Source: Crocinitomicaceae bacterium (GTDB lineage Bacteria; Bacteroidota; Bacteroidia; Flavobacteriales_D; Crocinitomicaceae). Taken from it: a DNA stretch of 64,000 bases. Shown here one piece after another: positions 1,029 to 54,798 of this stretch. The translations under genes and the position numbers were made by a program. The notes under the pieces were generated by a model. That model did no database searches, was not told where the DNA came from, and saw nothing but the letters and a program-made list of their open reading frames with translations. The stretch's first letter is position 1, and each line of letters begins with the position of its first letter. Location of the stretch: NCBI GenBank assembly GCA_029238665.1, contig JAQWFQ010000024.1:1-64000 (forward strand), written 5' to 3'.

Positions 1029-4000
1029 TTATTTAAATAGATTCATGAATTTTGCAAGGTAGGCTGTATTATCTGTTGCTTCAAACATAAAGTTTTTCTT
1101 CTTACGCTTGTCCTCTTTCATTTCCATCAATGATGTAGATAGCTCCTTGTCTCCGGTTAAAATTTTAAGCGTTCCGTTCTTCTTATCCATCGAATAATGA
1201 AATAAATAATCGTGCCCTCCAGGAATGCGCATCAGTGTTGTAAACGCATCACCTCCAGACCTTGAATAGATTTGTTGAAAGAACGCCTTAAATGGAATGT
1301 ATTTCATTACTGGTTCTCCATAAAAGTTAACAAGAACAGCGCTTCCAGCATTTGTAATAAGTCCCTTATCCTGAAGTTTTTGATTATCAAACGAGCTCAA
1401 GTGTAAGCCTGTAATTGTCATTGACTTATTAATCCCATCAGGAACTCTTTTAAGTGTTCCTAAACGTGCGTATTCATCTTTCACCTTATCGGCTGCCTGC
1501 TGACCGTTCCATGTAATAATTGCCTGTTCAAGTGTCGTTGAATTGAAGTCCATTGGATGCAATCCTTCGATAGCATTTATTTTTGCTGCTACTTTTTGCA
1601 TCAATCTTTTATCCAACTCCATATCAAACCTAGCTGTAACATCCATAGATGTCTCACCTGTTTGCTGGTCATAACTGACCGTCCCCACCGCATCAACACC
1701 AACACTCCCGTAATCCATTCCGAGTGAAACAACCCCATCTCCACTCAACGAACACGTACCTGTGTGAAGGGCAAGATAATTTCCTTTTCCACTGCGATTA
1801 ATCAACTTTTCTTTAGATCCTATTTGAAATTCATTCGAGCCATAGTCATATTGTAAATAGCCTGTCGATGTCATTACAATCGGGTCTTCTTGGTCAATCA
1901 ATGCAGACAGAAATGTTGGATACAATACAATACTATCTGTTGCGGGTGAATCCCGCCAAACAATTCCAGCAGAAATTGCATTACCCTCCAAATCGTTCAT
2001 TTCATCAAAAACCGGAATTTGAATGTTTTTCGGATTAATCTCAGAGGTAAAAGCCATCCAGTTTCGATCAAACTTACTACATGAATGATTCAGACGTGTC
2101 GCTCCAGAAAATAGAATCAATGGATTGGATGCATAAACACGTACACCTCCATAATAATCAAACTTATTGTTTAGTTTAAAACCTGTATCAAGGGTGATTT
2201 CTCCTGACGCTGTTGTTTGATAAGAGGAGTCTAAACCAATATCAGCCATCGCAATAAACGTCACAGTGCTATCCAAATCATAATACAAATACTGCCCTGA
2301 AGCAACATAGTCTCTACCTGTTTTTACATCAACAGTCGCCTCAAAAAACTGATGATAGCCAGCTACAAGCTCAGCATTTACTAGCTGATCCAACTTAGCA
2401 TTCTTACGAATCGTTAGCTTTAAACTATCTGGATAAATACGTGCGTCTGCCACATCAACATACCTTACCTTATTACACGAAATAGTCTTTGTTTTTAAAT
2501 CAAACTTTGCTTCTGGTGCTCTAAACCGAAGTGAATGTTCACCTAAAGGTGTTGAAAAGAAATTTGTTGCAACACGATCACTTCCTAAAGCAGATTGTTT
2601 TTCAGCTTGTTGCATTTCTATTGATGCATCATCTATCAACCATGTAAATTCATCCACCTCACACCCATACTGATTCACTGGGAACTCAACAACAGACCTA
2701 CCCTCACTTGATTTAAATACTCCTTTTCGATCCTGAATTGAGATGTACGCATTTACATTGTTAGCCTTAAATGCCAATGGAGGCTCATCAACATTAACAC
2801 TATCATTTTTCAGGTTAAACCTTGCAGAAGCTGCACCTATATCATAATGATTGTAATTAAAATTATCTGAAATTAATGACGCATTAACAAAAGTCATCTC
2901 TCCCGACCCCATTATACCATCAACCTGTACCGTTGCCACACCTTTAAGACGTGCATCCTGATCAAAGAAAACCAAGTCATTATTCGGAGATGATTTTACT
3001 TTTAAAATGTGTTTTTTTGGAATGTATGTAATGTAAGCATCGGTTGCTGTAACATGCGGAAATTCTACTCCTGTTGACACTGGTCGGTTTACAAACTGTG
3101 CAACTCCAATCGTTGAATCTGGTAAAAAAGATAACTGCTTAGATATTGATCTTGAATGCACAAAATCAATAACCCCCAAGCCCTGCAACCCATTGCCTGA
3201 CAGTGCAACTTGATGTTCATAATTGGCTTCTGTTCCATAAAACTTATATCCTCCACTTGGGGCTACAACAGAAAATCCAAATGAATAATCGGGCATAATT
3301 TTTAAATCCTCATTGATTTTTGGAAATATTCCAGCTGATGTCAGTGCCCCTTTTAACTTAAACGCCTTCTCATTAAATGAATTTAAGCTGTCCAATTCAA
3401 ACGGGAGTACGGTATAATAAAAGCGTGCACTATCATAAATACCTCCGTGAATCACCTTTGAATTATAAAACACCTTTGAGCTTGTCTTCGATTTCAATTG
3501 GGGATAACTCTCATACCCAGCTCTATGTCCTGACTTATTTTCAGAGGCATCAATCAATAGCTCGCCAGAAATCCCAACAAGGCTCGAAACCATTGCTATA
3601 GACCTCTGTCCATCTTCTTGTTTTAAAGGTCTCACCTTGAAAAAGGAGCCTTCCGTACTCAATAAGTTAAGCTTAAAGGCTTTGTACTCAAAACTCGCTT
3701 CTTTTGTATTAACCTCAAGTTTCCCAGCATTTACCCATCCTGAAAAATCAAAATTTCGATCTCTTTTAATCCTAACCGTATTGTTGGCTGGAAAAACAAC
3801 CGTGTTATTTGATGCAGAAAGTACAACCCTATCTACTGCTTCTAAATCTAAATCGAGTGTTGTTAAACTTAAAACACCAAAATTCTTTTTTATTCTCCGT
3901 TCCTTATTTTGTGTTTCATACAAGCTTTTTAAGGATTGTAGATAAGGGTCATTATCAACGCGGTCTTTTGAATACCCTTTCAAAGTTTTAGGCCTTAAAT

Positions 4001-5618
4001 CAGATGTAAATACAATATTATCATAATCAATGCGTCCGGCATTTGCTTTAACAAAGGTTTCTAACTTATCGGTAATAGTTACCGTCTTGCCCTCAGAATC
4101 ATACACAACAAACCCCATACTAGACAACCTATACAAGGTTAATTTCGCTTGAGACACTGTCATTCCAAGTACAGATGCAGCAGCACCTTCAGTAATCACA
4201 TACTCATCATGCAGGTAGCAATGTTTTGACAGGGCAACTAAAGGGTTTACGCTTGACTGAACTTGCAACTGGCTATACAGTTGAGCATCATAATAAGCTT
4301 TTGACTGAAATGAAGCTGTCTTTTGCTCTTGACTTATTCCTGGTTCATAGGTAAAATAAACAGCAGTGTCAGCAACATTCCAAGTTACTCTAGGTGCATA
4401 AATTTCCAATTGGTGATAAGAATCCTCAAAAGGCGCCTGACCAATTCCTGATGCAGTTCGTGCAAACTCAATACGTTTCTTTTTTAAATCATAGTTGAAA
4501 TTAAGACCAGGGTGATATAGCGAATCTCCCGAATTAAAATACATTGAAATAGCAGCCTTATTAATTGCAATCTTATCCGGTTTAATTCGAATTTCTTTTG
4601 CCTTTGCAGTAATAAACGCTGTATTGTTTTTTTTCAAGATTATCTGAGCTTTCTCGCTCGCTGACCCCATTCCAATAAAATCATCCCCCCGCATTGAAAA
4701 CCCTCCTATATAGTCCATGTTTGGGATAATATTTTCGACGAGTAAGTTGTGTTTAAAGGATAAAAACTGTGGGTATATTTTATCTTCTTCTCGATTGACC
4801 TTAAAAGCGCGATCTGTCATCATCCCCCCAATCATTTCATTAAAATAAGGGGTTCTAATGTTTACTGAATCAATTCTAAGCTTAGAGTTTTTTAACGACA
4901 AGCCATAACTGGTTATTAATGCAAACGTCTTATCTGGATTCAAACCTGCTTTTTCCCATGTAATTTTACCTCCTGATCCAATCCATTTTCTCAATTTAGG
5001 GTCATACCTTCCTGAGGTATTAATCACATTTAAACTGTCAATAACTTCTAAGTTACTTCTTGACTTGTTCGAAATTACACGACACACCAAGTTTCCTCCC
5101 TCAAAATTGATGAATGCTTTTTTGTCATACTCAAATTCAAAACTTCCACCTACATAATACCATGAAAAGCTTGACGACTCTGCAATGCATGACTCTGAGA
5201 ATAGCGCTTCAGACATTTCTAAAAATTCAGAAAACTTCTTTACATTTCTACCGGACAATAACTTATCTACGGAACTATGCCAAGCGTTATAACTTTCGGC
5301 CGTTTGATTACTTTTTGCAAAGGCGCTTACCGCATAAACATAATTATAGATATCGGGGTACGTTTTCCGCTTTTTTAAGTGCATCTGGTTACACATCTCA
5401 ACCATTTTGGAAAAGTTGCTGTTTGAAAAACTTGAGTTCCCAAGCAATAAACCAGGCAGCTCTTTTTTAGCAAAATCATATATTTCACCTCTCCCATGTT
5501 CGCTCAGTGCTTTTTGAAATTCTTTGACAAACTTCTCTTTATCGTCTGAATACACCTGAGCTATAGACATTGATGACATCATCAATACTAACAGTAACAA
5601 AAGACCTTTTAACCCCAT
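1029..5618 (-). CDS. giant secreted beta-rich protein of unknown function (1529 aa)
   Basis: Not recognised as a named family. Residues 1-20 form a signal peptide (MGLKGLLLLLVLMMSSMSIA, cleavage near SIAQ), so the product is exported to the periplasm or surface. Residues 25-145 look helical; from about 150 to 1500 the chain is a long series of short alternating strands (for example NFEGGNLVCRVISNKS and YLYYDLDSTVTFIAMA), like a beta-solenoid or stacked jellyrolls. Residues about 474-515 interrupt this with a helix-turn-helix plus wing pattern (AAASVLGMTVSQAKLTLYRL then strands). No C-terminal type IX sorting domain, transmembrane segment or catalytic motif was found. It begins 15 bases after the prmA stop, so it is probably the distal gene of the tpiA-prmA operon. 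An envelope-maintenance role is possible but unsupported. Confidence 0.85.
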   Translation of the reverse strand: MGLKGLLLLLVLMMSSMSIAQVYSDDKEKFVKEFQKALSEHGRGEIYDFAKKELPGLLLGNSSFSNSNFSKMVEMCNQMHLKKRKTYPDIYNYVYAVSAFAKSNQTAESYNAWHSSVDKLLSGRNVKKFSEFLEMSEALFSESCIAESSSFSWYYVGGSFEFEYDKKAFINFEGGNLVCRVISNKSRSNLEVIDSLNVINTSGRYDPKLRKWIGSGGKITWEKAGLNPDKTFALITSYGLSLKNSKLRIDSVNIRTPYFNEMIGGMMTDRAFKVNREEDKIYPQFLSFKHNLLVENIIPNMDYIGGFSMRGDDFIGMGSASEKAQIILKKNNTAFITAKAKEIRIKPDKIAINKAAISMYFNSGDSLYHPGLNFNYDLKKKRIEFARTASGIGQAPFEDSYHQLEIYAPRVTWNVADTAVYFTYEPGISQEQKTASFQSKAYYDAQLYSQLQVQSSVNPLVALSKHCYLHDEYVITEGAAASVLGMTVSQAKLTLYRLSSMGFVVYDSEGKTVTITDKLETFVKANAGRIDYDNIVFTSDLRPKTLKGYSKDRVDNDPYLQSLKSLYETQNKERRIKKNFGVLSLTTLDLDLEAVDRVVLSASNNTVVFPANNTVRIKRDRNFDFSGWVNAGKLEVNTKEASFEYKAFKLNLLSTEGSFFKVRPLKQEDGQRSIAMVSSLVGISGELLIDASENKSGHRAGYESYPQLKSKTSSKVFYNSKVIHGGIYDSARFYYTVLPFELDSLNSFNEKAFKLKGALTSAGIFPKINEDLKIMPDYSFGFSVVAPSGGYKFYGTEANYEHQVALSGNGLQGLGVIDFVHSRSISKQLSFLPDSTIGVAQFVNRPVSTGVEFPHVTATDAYITYIPKKHILKVKSSPNNDLVFFDQDARLKGVATVQVDGIMGSGEMTFVNASLISDNFNYNHYDIGAASARFNLKNDSVNVDEPPLAFKANNVNAYISIQDRKGVFKSSEGRSVVEFPVNQYGCEVDEFTWLIDDASIEMQQAEKQSALGSDRVATNFFSTPLGEHSLRFRAPEAKFDLKTKTISCNKVRYVDVADARIYPDSLKLTIRKNAKLDQLVNAELVAGYHQFFEATVDVKTGRDYVASGQYLYYDLDSTVTFIAMADIGLDSSYQTTASGEITLDTGFKLNNKFDYYGGVRVYASNPLILFSGATRLNHSCSKFDRNWMAFTSEINPKNIQIPVFDEMNDLEGNAISAGIVWRDSPATDSIVLYPTFLSALIDQEDPIVMTSTGYLQYDYGSNEFQIGSKEKLINRSGKGNYLALHTGTCSLSGDGVVSLGMDYGSVGVDAVGTVSYDQQTGETSMDVTARFDMELDKRLMQKVAAKINAIEGLHPMDFNSTTLEQAIITWNGQQAADKVKDEYARLGTLKRVPDGINKSMTITGLHLSSFDNQKLQDKGLITNAGSAVLVNFYGEPVMKYIPFKAFFQQIYSRSGGDAFTTLMRIPGGHDYLFHYSMDKKNGTLKILTGDKELSTSLMEMKEDKRKKKNFMFEATDNTAYLAKFMNLFK

Positions 5619-51191: not shown

Positions 51192-51343
51192 TTTCTATTG
51201 GCTCTCTTAACATTTGTTTGAGATGGATTTTTGTGTGATTTGCATCCACTCACATTAAAGTAATTGGCTTTATTAAGCCTGTTTTTTGTGCATTTTACAT
51301 TATTAATACCAATATCAATCCCGTTTTTCTTATTTTTATCTTG

Positions 51344-52555
51344 ATGAAAAAATTCGAGATACCGGAGTATTACAAATCTCCAATCATTAGCAAAGTAAAA
51401 GCAATGCGGAAGTTGGAAGACCCTAGAAAAAAGGACTTCTCTCCTACCATACTTAAGTTCGGAAGTGTCGAGTTTATTATCAGTAGACATTTTGGATTTT
51501 GTTATGGTGTTGAAAACGCAATTGAAAAATCCTATCGTGCTATTCAAGAAAATCCTGAAAAACGTATCTTTCTGATTAGCCAAATGATCCACAATCCAGA
51601 CGTAAATCAAGACCTATTAAGTCAGGGTGTACGGTTTATTCAAGACACTGATGGTTCACAACTGATTTCTTGGGATGAGATTACACTTGAAGATATTGTT
51701 ATTATACCGGCTTTTGGAACAACAACTGAAACTCGCAACCTGTTAACAGACAAAGGTGTTGACGTTAAAACCTACAACACAACCTGTCCTTTTGTAGAAA
51801 AAGTTTGGAATCGATCTGCTAAACTTGGAGAAAACGACCATACAATTATTATTCACGGAAAATATAATCACGAAGAAACGAAAGCTACTTTTTCTCATAG
51901 TAAAGAAAATTCCCCTTCACTTATCGTAAAGAACATGGAAGAGACAAAGTTTCTTTCTGATTATATTTTAGGAAAACATTCAACTGAAGAGTTTAATGCA
52001 TATTTCAAACATAAATATTCAGCTAACTTTAACCCTGAGTTAGATTTAGCAAAAATTGGAGTTGTTAATCAAACAACAATGCTAGCCTCAGAAACCCAAG
52101 AAATAGCAAGCTTCATTCGTACAACGATGATTGAAAAATTTGGGGAAGAACAAATCAAAAATCATTTCGCAGACACAAAAGACACCTTGTGTTACGCAAC
52201 AAACGACAACCAATCTGCAACCTTAGAATTATTAAATCAAGAAGCTGACTTGGCTATTGTCGTTGGTGGATATAACAGCAGCAACACCTCACATTTAGTA
52301 GAGCTACTTGAACAAAAATTCAAAACATTCTTTATTAAAAATGATGAGGAAATCTCCAGTAAAAACACGATTAAATCATTTAACATCCACTCCAAAACAA
52401 CCACAAATTCAACCGAGTTTCTTGGAGACAAAAAAACATTGAAAATCATAATAACTTCAGGCGCTTCATGCCCTGATGCAATTGTAGACAATGTAATGAA
52501 ACGTGTTTTAGACCTTATGGACATTCCTTTTGACCCTAATAACATAAAATTATAG
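51344..52555 (+). CDS. ispH: 4-hydroxy-3-methylbut-2-enyl diphosphate reductase
   Basis: Final step of the MEP isoprenoid pathway, an Fe-S enzyme giving isopentenyl and dimethylallyl diphosphate. The three cluster cysteines are in HFGFCYGVENAI, TTCPFVEKVW and SGASCPDAIVDNV; the substrate histidine is in HGKYNHEETKAT. About 403 residues, the long form used in Bacteroidota. A TTG at 51341 also opens the frame; ATG 51344 is chosen, with a TATTTTTA near-consensus -7 box 5 bases before it. First gene of an operon with the cyclase and pduO-type genes. Confidence 0.95.
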   Translation: MKKFEIPEYYKSPIISKVKAMRKLEDPRKKDFSPTILKFGSVEFIISRHFGFCYGVENAIEKSYRAIQENPEKRIFLISQMIHNPDVNQDLLSQGVRFIQDTDGSQLISWDEITLEDIVIIPAFGTTTETRNLLTDKGVDVKTYNTTCPFVEKVWNRSAKLGENDHTIIIHGKYNHEETKATFSHSKENSPSLIVKNMEETKFLSDYILGKHSTEEFNAYFKHKYSANFNPELDLAKIGVVNQTTMLASETQEIASFIRTTMIEKFGEEQIKNHFADTKDTLCYATNDNQSATLELLNQEADLAIVVGGYNSSNTSHLVELLEQKFKTFFIKNDEEISSKNTIKSFNIHSKTTTNSTEFLGDKKTLKIIITSGASCPDAIVDNVMKRVLDLMDIPFDPNNIKL

Positions 52556-54250
52556 ATGGAAAAGTTCATCAACATCCTTATTGTTCACCCCGAAGAAATT
52601 ATCCGAATTGGATTAAAAGAAATTCTTTCCGGAGGAGGCAATAATGTATTGATGGCTAGCAATAGTGAAGAAGCACTAACAACCATTCAAAAAAAAGAAA
52701 TTGGTATTGTCATACTCGATATTGAAATTGTGAATCATGGCAACGCTATAATTAAAGAATTAAAGCTTAAAAGCAAACTCAAGAACAACTACACGATTTT
52801 AATTTCAAATAGGATAACTACCGATTCTAAAATATATAAAGGAATGCAAGGTGGAGCAGTCGACTATATCCCCTTTCCCTTTAACCCCAACCTAATTAAA
52901 AGTAAAATTGAAGTTTTTAAAACACTTTATTACAAAGACCAACGAATTGGTGAATTGTTGAGTAACATATTTCCTGAAACCGTATTAAACGAACTATCTT
53001 CAGGAGGCAAGTTCTCACCTAAGAGGATTGAGAAGGGAGTTGTTTTATTTACTGACTTTGTTGACTTCTCTCAAAAAGCAAAATCAACCAAACCTCTTCT
53101 ATTAATTCAACAACTGGAAAAATATTTCTCAAAATTTGACCAGATCATGTTGAAATATAATCTTGAAAAAATTAAAACAATTGGAGACGCTTACATGGCA
53201 CTTTCGGGGGTGACAGAAGATAATCCAGAACCCGTAATTAGGGCATGTTTAGCAGCCATTGAAATTCGAGATTTCATGAAGAGTGAACGCGATGTTGCGA
53301 TTGCGCTAAAACAAGACTTTTGGGAAATTAGAATTGGTCTACACATGGGACCATTGGTTGCTGGAATTATAGGCGCTACAAAATATAGTTTTGATGTTTG
53401 GGGAGACACTGTCAATGTTGCTGCACGCGCAGAGTCTGGCACTAAAAATGGAACCATTAGCGTTACCCGATCTATTTACAACGAAATAAAAGACCTCTTC
53501 ACCACATCACCTCGAGGAAACATTGACTTAAAAAAGCGAGGCGGATCAGTTGAAATGTTCTACCTAGATTCTATTAACCCTGAAAACTCAATGTATAATG
53601 AAGGTTGTATTCCCGATAGTGAATTACGCCTTAAATGCGGATTAGTGTCAATGGACTTTAATCTTATGCGCAGTTGGATCTTAAATCATTTAAAATCATT
53701 ACTGCCAGAAAACATGCTTTATCACGACATACCACACACCTTAAATGTAGAAAACTCAGCAATACGATATGGAAAGCTAGAAGGTATTACAGATGAAGAA
53801 ATGTGTTTAATTAGAACAGCCGCACTTTACCATGATGCTGGATTCATTTTAAGCTATGAAGAAAACGAAGACTTTGCTATCTCTATGGCTCAATCAACCC
53901 TCCCTAAATTTGGATACTCAGAAAATCAAATTAAATTAGTCTGTGACTGCATACATGCTACAAAGCCTAACATCATCCCTCAAACTCTTCTAGAACAACT
54001 AATGGTTGATGCAGACTACGATTATTTAGGACGACCCGATTACCATGTAATTGTAAAAAAATTACGCTTAGAGCTTAGTGATTATGGTGTTAACATGACA
54101 GAAATAGAATGGTTAAACTACCAATTAAATTTCTTAGAAAACATCCACCAATACTTCACTGTTTCAGCAAAGAACATTCGAGATTACGGTAAGTCTGTTC
54201 GAATTAACGACTTGAAACAAAAATTAGAGAACTTGAAATCAAACGAGTAA
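52556..54250 (+). CDS. receiver - class III adenylate cyclase - HD phosphohydrolase fusion
   Basis: A 564-residue protein of three domains. Residues 5-122 are a receiver domain (phospho-acceptor D55 in VILDIEIV; the usual acidic pocket reads HPEE and the Lys of the YxKP motif is Phe in YIPFPF, so it may be a pseudo-receiver). Residues ~155-340 form a class III cyclase: metal Asp D167 (FTDFVDF) and D211 (IGDAY), ATP-specific K207 and D280 (FDVWG), transition-state N287 and R291 (NVAAR) are all present, so adenylate cyclase activity is expected. Residues ~385-500 form an HD domain with ligands H394, H426-D427 (YHDAG), H467 and D485/D487. The HD part could degrade a nucleotide. It starts at the base after the ispH stop and overlaps pduO by one base. 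Confidence 0.9.
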   Translation: MEKFINILIVHPEEIIRIGLKEILSGGGNNVLMASNSEEALTTIQKKEIGIVILDIEIVNHGNAIIKELKLKSKLKNNYTILISNRITTDSKIYKGMQGGAVDYIPFPFNPNLIKSKIEVFKTLYYKDQRIGELLSNIFPETVLNELSSGGKFSPKRIEKGVVLFTDFVDFSQKAKSTKPLLLIQQLEKYFSKFDQIMLKYNLEKIKTIGDAYMALSGVTEDNPEPVIRACLAAIEIRDFMKSERDVAIALKQDFWEIRIGLHMGPLVAGIIGATKYSFDVWGDTVNVAARAESGTKNGTISVTRSIYNEIKDLFTTSPRGNIDLKKRGGSVEMFYLDSINPENSMYNEGCIPDSELRLKCGLVSMDFNLMRSWILNHLKSLLPENMLYHDIPHTLNVENSAIRYGKLEGITDEEMCLIRTAALYHDAGFILSYEENEDFAISMAQSTLPKFGYSENQIKLVCDCIHATKPNIIPQTLLEQLMVDADYDYLGRPDYHVIVKKLRLELSDYGVNMTEIEWLNYQLNFLENIHQYFTVSAKNIRDYGKSVRINDLKQKLENLKSNE

Positions 54251-54798
54251 TGAAGGTATATACAAAAAAAGGAGATAAAGGAACAACCCAATTGATTGGA
54301 GGAACACGCATTCCCAAAAATGCGCTACGAATTGAAGCTTATGGTACAATTGATGAATTAAATTCATATATCGGGCTAATTCGAGATCAAGAAATTAACT
54401 CCAATTACGTCGATCAATTGATTGAAACACAGGATCGTTTATTCACGCTTGGCTCACTGCTTGCAGCTGACCCTGAAAAATCGACAATGAAACTCCCAGA
54501 ACTTCAAGAGTCAGACATTACAAATCTTGAAAATTGGATTGATGAAATGGAAACTACACTAGAACCAATGACAAGTTTCATCCTTCCTGGTGGACACACA
54601 ACAGTATCTTACACACACATCGCCCGCTGTATTTGCAGACGGTCAGAAAGAGTAATCACCGAATTAAGCTTAACAAATACCGTTTCTCCACGGATTCTTG
54701 CATATGTAAATCGATTAAGTGACTACCTCTTTGTTTTGGGGCGAAAACTAACAAAAGACCTAAATGCAAAAGAACAACCTTGGAAACCGAGAATGTAA
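54250..54798 (+). CDS. ATP:cob(I)alamin adenosyltransferase (PduO type)
   Basis: Makes adenosylcobalamin from ATP and cob(I)alamin. The 182-residue protein shows the PduO pattern: VYTKKGDKGTTQLIGGTRIPKNALRIEAYGTIDELNSYIGL, RCICRRSERVITEL and YVNRLSDYLFVLGRKL. Its start overlaps the cyclase stop by one base, so it is the third gene of the operon. A metal/corrinoid-receptor gene exists elsewhere in the window (13423-14211). Confidence 0.95.
   Translation: MKVYTKKGDKGTTQLIGGTRIPKNALRIEAYGTIDELNSYIGLIRDQEINSNYVDQLIETQDRLFTLGSLLAADPEKSTMKLPELQESDITNLENWIDEMETTLEPMTSFILPGGHTTVSYTHIARCICRRSERVITELSLTNTVSPRILAYVNRLSDYLFVLGRKLTKDLNAKEQPWKPRM

Follow-up and report, generated by a model that had tools for sequence, protein, structure and literature searches.

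A receiver, cyclase and HD fusion in Crocinitomicaceae as a candidate one-chain cAMP synthase and cyclic-nucleotide phosphodiesterase

Joining a synthase and a hydrolase in one chain is a known concept, represented by CAPE and, for other messengers, by Rel and GGDEF-EAL proteins. Rel pairs a synthetase with an HD hydrolase in a single polypeptide, and Rel/SpoT, GGDEF-EAL and GGDEF-HD-GYP proteins each combine the synthase and the hydrolase of one second messenger, HD-GYP domains being recognized by their GYP motif. CAPE (COMBINED AC with PDE), found in streptophytes, unites a class III adenylyl cyclase with a class I phosphodiesterase (PDE); the passages of PMC8115329 and PMC5159850 that describe it give an N-terminal PDE, a C-terminal cyclase and two membrane helices between them, and PMC5159850 reports both AC and PDE activities for MpCAPE of Marchantia. 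The same passages place Asn or Thr at the PDE Gln position of CAPE and state that the Thr-type MpCAPE hydrolyzes cAMP (PMC8115329, PMC5159850), so that PDE activity is, on this account, possible without the Gln. In the classification given in PMC8115329, class I PDEs are eukaryotic and bacterial PDEs belong to class III, while the corresponding passage of PMC4858519 assigns bacterial PDEs to classes II and III.

The window, the whole 64,000-nucleotide stretch of DNA analyzed here, from a marine member of the Bacteroidota family Crocinitomicaceae, encodes at 52556..54250 (plus strand) a 564-residue protein with the order receiver, class III nucleotidyl cyclase, HD domain. We regard it, with moderate confidence, as a bifunctional cAMP synthase/cyclic-nucleotide phosphodiesterase whose activities are balanced by a pseudo-receiver and by dimer contacts. 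The pairing of activities proposed for it is that of CAPE, but the domain order is reversed, the protein is bacterial, and no membrane helix is evident; moreover, the PDE of CAPE is eukaryotic and recognizably class I, whereas the HD domain studied here falls below the PDEase_I cut-off. Rel/SpoT, GGDEF-EAL and GGDEF-HD-GYP proteins differ from it in messenger and in synthase family, and the GYP signature of the last group is absent from its sequence, which ruled out an HD-GYP assignment. A search of the open-licence literature, judged by titles and abstract openings, returned no description of a bacterial cyclase-HD fusion.

Architecture, distribution and neighborhood

Pfam places Response_reg at aa 7-118 (1.6e-10) and Guanylate_cyc at aa 156-338 (9e-41), PF00211 scoring 139.9 bits against a curated cut-off of 21.9. 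HD (PF01966) is located at aa 394-487 with 19.8 bits in the full protein, just below the cut-off of 22, and reaches 22.5 bits when aa 361-564 is scanned alone; the H...HD...D pattern of the HD superfamily is present in that region, and its residues are invariant in the alignments. A preliminary, sequence-only reading had described one polypeptide holding a receiver, a cyclase with every ATP-type residue and an HD domain with an intact ligand set, and both Pfam and the residue checks agree with that description.

Whole-genome searches recovered REC-cyclase-HD genes in 33 of 34 genomes of the genus (its own and 32 of the 33 others), the remaining genome, G004, containing other cyclase matches only. 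Contig ends or gaps leave three or four of the 33 copies incomplete (that of G030 is divided over contigs, and those of G013, G011 and G006 are partial), and 30 (own plus 29) form the genus alignment. Because the architecture recurs so widely, chance and a local or strain-specific fusion artefact are ruled out, which also answers the earlier concern that the HD or the cyclase part might be a fragment peculiar to this strain.

A scan of named genome contigs extended the comparison: its best 80 matches correspond to 78 distinct loci, mostly titled Crocinitomicaceae, Fluviicola, Brumimicrobium, Crocinitomix or Lishizhenia, with further titles of Flavobacteriales, Flavobacteriia and Bacteroidetes MAGs. 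A few MAGs are titled Chryseobacterium gleum, Chitinophaga or Planktophila, names that we take to be assembly labels. The nearest of these best 80 matches belongs to Flavobacteriales bacterium UBA4466, at 84 % identity. The window protein and 60 of the 78 loci were assembled into a 61-row alignment (hereafter the best-80 alignment), of which 48 rows, the window included, have a receiver and 13 do not; the 18 loci outside it comprise the partial ones and some of the cyclase-HD paralogs.

Genomic neighborhood analysis reveals tight packing on the plus strand. The ATG lies on the base directly after the stop codon of ispH (LytB; 51341..52555; PF02401, 3.3e-67), and the stop codon shares one base with the ATG of the downstream gene (TAATG), a PduO-type cobalamin adenosyltransferase (54250..54798; Cob_adeno_trans, PF01923, 5.8e-58). 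Within the genus, ispH is directly upstream in 27/27 loci and the adenosyltransferase directly downstream in 28/28 loci with enough flank. In the contig set drawn from the best 80 matches, which overlaps the genus set, the corresponding counts are 27/48 and 30/48. Each of the two ispH counts includes two loci (among L006, L030, L055 and L094) whose stop-to-stop frames overlap ispH by >60 bases. Brumimicrobium (L082) and others have different neighbors. The ispH/pduO setting is a lineage-specific operon conserved in the genus, with nothing to show that it is functionally connected with isoprenoid or cobalamin metabolism. The position between these two genes, earlier called an odd home for a signaling enzyme, is as described, but within the genus it is a conserved operon and not an oddity; the comparison of the ispH linkage across relatives that had been proposed shows it to hold throughout the genus and to be missing in many more distant relatives.

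Receiver and cyclase domains

A phosphorylatable receiver (PF00072) is defined by an acid pair, a phospho-Asp, a Thr/Ser and a Lys. The degenerate receiver of the window protein (aa 7-118; 52574..52909, plus strand), assigned by PF00072 and residue counts, has an incomplete set: D55 and S84 are retained, H11 and P12 occupy the acid pair, and F107 occupies the position of the conserved Lys. Classical phosphorylation appears unlikely on these residues, and the sequence-only reading, which had noted the missing Lys and the partial loss of the acid pocket, is borne out for the window protein. It does not extend to a uniform trait, since the decay is graded. Across the 48 full-length rows drawn from the best 80 matches, the phospho-Asp column contains N in 35, D in 9 and S in 4, the Lys column contains K in 15, and the full set of acid pair, Asp, Thr/Ser and Lys is kept in only two (L079 and L080, both with Thr). 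Mean pairwise identity in the best-80 alignment is 0.45 for the receiver, 0.54 for the HD domain and 0.62 for the cyclase, making the receiver the least conserved part: its site decays, whereas the active sites of the cyclase and the HD domain are nearly invariant. Two loci of another family (L034, L035) encode the same architecture with acid pair, Asp and Lys in the receiver, which suggests, on a comparison made without a tree, that phospho-control is the older state. No partner histidine kinase was found in the 5 of 9 frames scanned beside these two loci, which encode PriA, HisRS (twice), TamB and one protein without a family. In the full-length AF2 model, a long helix (aa 111-138; 52886..52969, plus strand) joins the receiver to the cyclase, with low pLDDT near the helix end.

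The class III nucleotidyl cyclase domain (53021..53569, plus strand) is identified by PF00211, near-invariant residues and a fold match. The window protein has all of D167, K207, D211, D280, N287 and R291, of which we take D167 and D211 to be the metal Asp residues, K207 and D280 to mark the ATP type, and N287 and R291 to stabilize the transition state. These residues are present in 30/30 rows of the genus alignment; in the best-80 alignment the first five occur in 61/61 rows and R291 in 59/61, the window included. Fold comparison of the full model returned cyclase-containing chains, mainly over aa 106-350, with 5oyh at Z 25.1 and CyaB at Z 24.6. The class III adenylyl cyclases Rv1625c, CyaB of Pseudomonas, AC5 and AC9 share this fold (Z 21.6 to 24.6), and the full ATP-type catalytic set is common to class III adenylyl cyclases and this protein, which differs from them in adding a C-terminal HD domain and a pseudo-receiver. 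Residues and modeled fold together give good support to the predicted cyclase step, and we infer that its substrate would be ATP. In one homolog (L033), a stretch of about 22 residues is missing behind the first metal Asp; this cyclase may be inactive, or the assembly may be at fault there.

In this genome, 98.45 % complete, PF00211 matches and HD-family members each number exactly two, and each HD is fused to one of the two cyclases. The second such protein, L002 (minus strand of G000:C9, match 3632-4930), is encoded by an open frame of 1325 aa that combines Reg_prop and Y_Y_Y domains with a class III cyclase and the HD domain. Long frames of this kind recur within the genus, and additional cyclase matches in many genus genomes stop short of an HD domain.

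The HD domain and its likeness to class I phosphodiesterases

The HD domain (aa 361-564; 53636..54247, plus strand), which resembles class I cyclic-nucleotide PDEs, was characterized with a 78-row alignment, an AF2 model, VIA-align structural comparison and profile alignment. Its residues in the window are Y389, H390, H394, H426, D427, D485 and D487, arranged as YH, H, HD and DAD, together with Q523 and F526. The first seven are invariant in the 78-row alignment and in 61/61 rows of the best-80 alignment, where Q523 is likewise found in 61/61 and position 526 is F or Y; the six His and Asp residues occur in 30/30 rows of the genus alignment.

Structurally, the model of this domain, built from the 78-sequence alignment, has a mean pLDDT of 96. 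In the Foldseek ranking, the ADP complex of YpgQ leads (E 5.5e-4) and PDE5 comes eighth (7.3e-3). When VIA-align was run on Foldseek's top 1000, the top row was PDE10A (Z 18.2, 195 of 204 residues aligned, rmsd 2.9), with the Salpingoeca rhodopsin-PDE at Z 17.6 over 197 residues and the uncharacterized HD protein 2pq7 at Z 17.7 over 163. PDE10A and 2pq7 tie in Z, and the PDEs cover more of the modeled domain. A shared fold does not imply a shared function, and the match to the class I PDE fold says nothing on activity.

YpgQ is a (d)NTP/NDP pyrophosphatase, and the HD domain may hydrolyze such a nucleotide, or an alarmone, with the protein linking cAMP synthesis to another pool. This is the foremost alternative, although we consider it rather unlikely. 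It draws on the first rank of YpgQ, on the tie between 2pq7 and PDE10A, and on the best PDB sequence-profile matches, which are uncharacterized HD hydrolases; YpgQ-type enzymes (5dqw, 2pq7) indeed share the HD fold at a comparable structural score. Against it, 2pq7 aligns over a smaller share of the domain than the PDEs do (163 residues as opposed to the 195 of PDE10A), and the fusion of the family to class III cyclases and PycTM, or its position beside such cyclases, weighs weakly in the same direction. We know of no linkage of YpgQ-type HD hydrolases to cyclases.

Profile comparison bears on homology. Aligned with five class I PDEs, a 134-row HD profile scored 42.5 (probability 79.3), whereas control maxima were 19.5 in 100 column shuffles and 13.7 for reversed profiles. 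Y389/H390, H394, H426/D427, T469 and D487 fall on the YH, H, HD, T(LATD) and D(HCAD) of PDE4D; in the unmasked alignments, H390, H394, H426, D427 and D487 pair with the PDE4D His, His, His, Asp and Asp, and Q523 and F526 fall on the Gln and Phe of its SQVGF. These pairings are stable with all rows, with Gln-type rows, with the rows of the 78-row alignment alone, or with any one of the other four PDEs dropped. The statistical signal depends on breadth: the 78-row set alone reaches a global probability of only 7.5, so that the 134-row set is required, and a single-sequence hhalign comparison of the 78-row alignment with PDE4D aligns 26 columns at a probability of 0.6, the five-PDE profile being needed. 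It also resides in the N-terminal part of the domain (probability 83), the C-terminal part alone giving no match to the PDEs (0.4). With Q523 and F526 masked, the His and metal pairings stay in local mode and the Gln pairing is lost, while in global mode the profile shifts from aa 466 onward; when the profile is built solely from non-Gln members, the global alignment keeps no pairing past the HD motif. Sequence profiles therefore support homology between the HD core and class I PDEs, the yardstick being shuffled and reversed profiles rather than other HD families. The equivalence of Q523 to the purine-reading Gln of PDEs is only suggestive, as a pairing that shifts under masking is not robust.

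In sum of shared features, fold is common with class I PDEs (PF00233; PDE4D, PDE10A) over 195/204 residues and the YHxxxH, HD and AD positions align, but the HD domain studied here is shorter, does not have the second PDE histidine after HD (HDAGF in the window vs HDVDHPG in PDE4D), and fails the curated model. Recognition by the Pfam PDEase_I model (PF00233) was unsuccessful: this genome yields no match at E 0.01, and the curated cut-off is exceeded in 0/296 phylum genomes. Where PF00233 does match the HD family weakly, in six genomes (G111, G115, G084, G126, G190, G195), the members concerned are all non-Gln and mostly PycTM-fused.

Fold, profile and company together point to PDE activity of the HD domain. 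In the mechanism we propose, the class III domain would convert ATP into cAMP, probably in homodimeric form, and the C-terminal HD domain, using two metals and the catalytic histidine H390, would hydrolyze the 3',5'-cyclic phosphate. The pseudo-receiver and helix may set the balance of synthesis and hydrolysis through contacts within the dimer or with a partner, not through phosphorylation, yielding a short-lived or set-point-controlled cAMP signal; such reciprocal control, and the input role of the receiver, are what we infer from this arrangement. The sequence-only suggestion that a synthase is joined to a possible nucleotide hydrolase gains strength from the class I PDE likeness and from the cyclic-nucleotide contexts of the HD family. 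The genome also encodes two metallophosphoesterases, so the HD domain need not be its sole candidate PDE.

Less probable than hydrolysis of another nucleotide is a regulatory role, in which the HD domain would bind cAMP or a different nucleotide and govern the cyclase while turning over little or none of its ligand. Regulatory HD domains exist, and this protein already has one degenerate, non-canonical input in its receiver; however, all candidate ligand and catalytic residues are kept in 61/61 rows from the best 80 matches, which binding alone would hardly need.

If a bifunctional synthase/phosphodiesterase is the correct reading, a one-chain writer and eraser of cAMP would parallel Rel and the plant CAPE, and a class I-like bacterial HD domain tied to class III cyclases would offer a testable relative of a drug-target family. 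It would also give a way into cAMP signaling in these Bacteroidota, no receptor being evident in this genome. Canonical CRP carries a recognizable cAMP-binding cassette, and by eye neither of the genome's two PF00027 (cNMP-binding-domain) proteins shows it, so canonical CRP was rejected as the receptor.

Company of the HD family across the phylum

In a sample of 148 phylum genomes, the HD family occurs in 67 and PF00211 in 85. The company of the HD domain was classified from loci in 52 of the 67, the other 15 being weak matches that were left out, and some classified loci are one gene entered twice. Cyclase-fused HDs have Gln at the 523 position in 12/12 cases of this set and in 61/61 rows of the best-80 alignment. 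A second group comprises 35 HD-PycTM fusions, proteins of ∼400 aa in other Bacteroidota (L147-L157, L160, L162 and others between L164 and L223), with 27 N, 2 T, 2 D, 2 Q, 1 S and 1 I at this position; PycTM was identified by Pfam in three of these proteins (PF18967, 1e-34 to 2e-36) and in the rest by a model built from 13. Among the stand-alone Q-type HD genes, those at L136 and L146, in two other genomes, follow a class III cyclase gene (PF00211 1e-54) on the same strand at distances of 34 and 209 bp.

The HD family is thus associated with cyclases, albeit without a clean split between types: 739 bp separate a T-type stand-alone HD (L211) from a same-strand cyclase, and one PycTM fusion (L204) overlaps a cyclase-like frame on the opposite strand, the other 34 having no cyclase frame in the flanks examined. 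PF00211 is present in 12/12 genomes with a Q-type HD vs 73/136 others (p 9e-4, 148 genomes, kinship ignored); against genomes with other HD types only, the association is weak (12/12 vs 29/40, p 0.04, kinship ignored). A FastTree phylogeny of 134 HD domains groups all cyclase-fused and nine stand-alone HDs in one clade (support 0.72), some stand-alone HDs nesting with weak support among the fused ones, so that fission or fusion of HD and cyclase may have happened repeatedly.

Pycsar (PycC/PycTM) likewise uses a class III-like cyclase, paired with a PycTM or PycTIR effector, and the same HD family is fused to the PycTM effector domain in other genomes of the phylum. A Pycsar-like reading, in which the cyclase makes another cyclic mononucleotide and the HD domain removes that product, can appeal to these fusions and to the PADLOC PycC models, which match the cyclase weakly (best 3.4e-13). 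We consider it improbable: the ATP-type K207 and D280 are present in 61/61 rows from the best 80 matches, no PycTM is found in this genome, and the context is ispH and pduO with no defense locus. Membership of Pycsar itself is unsupported on the same grounds, and PycTM-HD proteins need not be defense effectors.

A broader proposal, which we put forward as speculative and rather doubtful, is that eukaryotic class I PDEs have their bacterial counterpart, and perhaps their root, in this HD family, the residue at the 523 position (Gln when cyclase-fused; Asn, Thr, Ser, Asp or Ile in 33/35 PycTM fusions) marking the cyclic nucleotide that is erased. That the gene is instead an ordinary multidomain signaling gene with the HD domain as a passenger devoid of catalytic consequence is very improbable, given that the domain is kept in 33/34 genus genomes with its residues invariant in the 30 aligned and that a second architecture of the same genome also bears it, even though another family of the order has a REC-cyclase protein of 386 aa without HD (L036).

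Other partners of the HD family were also observed. At L139 (the same gene as in L186), Pfam identifies a fusion to a YitT membrane protein with DUF2179; at L141, a YitT/DUF2179 fusion was called by sequence likeness, and its frame overlaps a weaker cyclase-like frame by 4 bases. At L138/L217, 14 bp separate the gene of a TPR-HD protein from a weak cyclase-like frame on the opposite strand.
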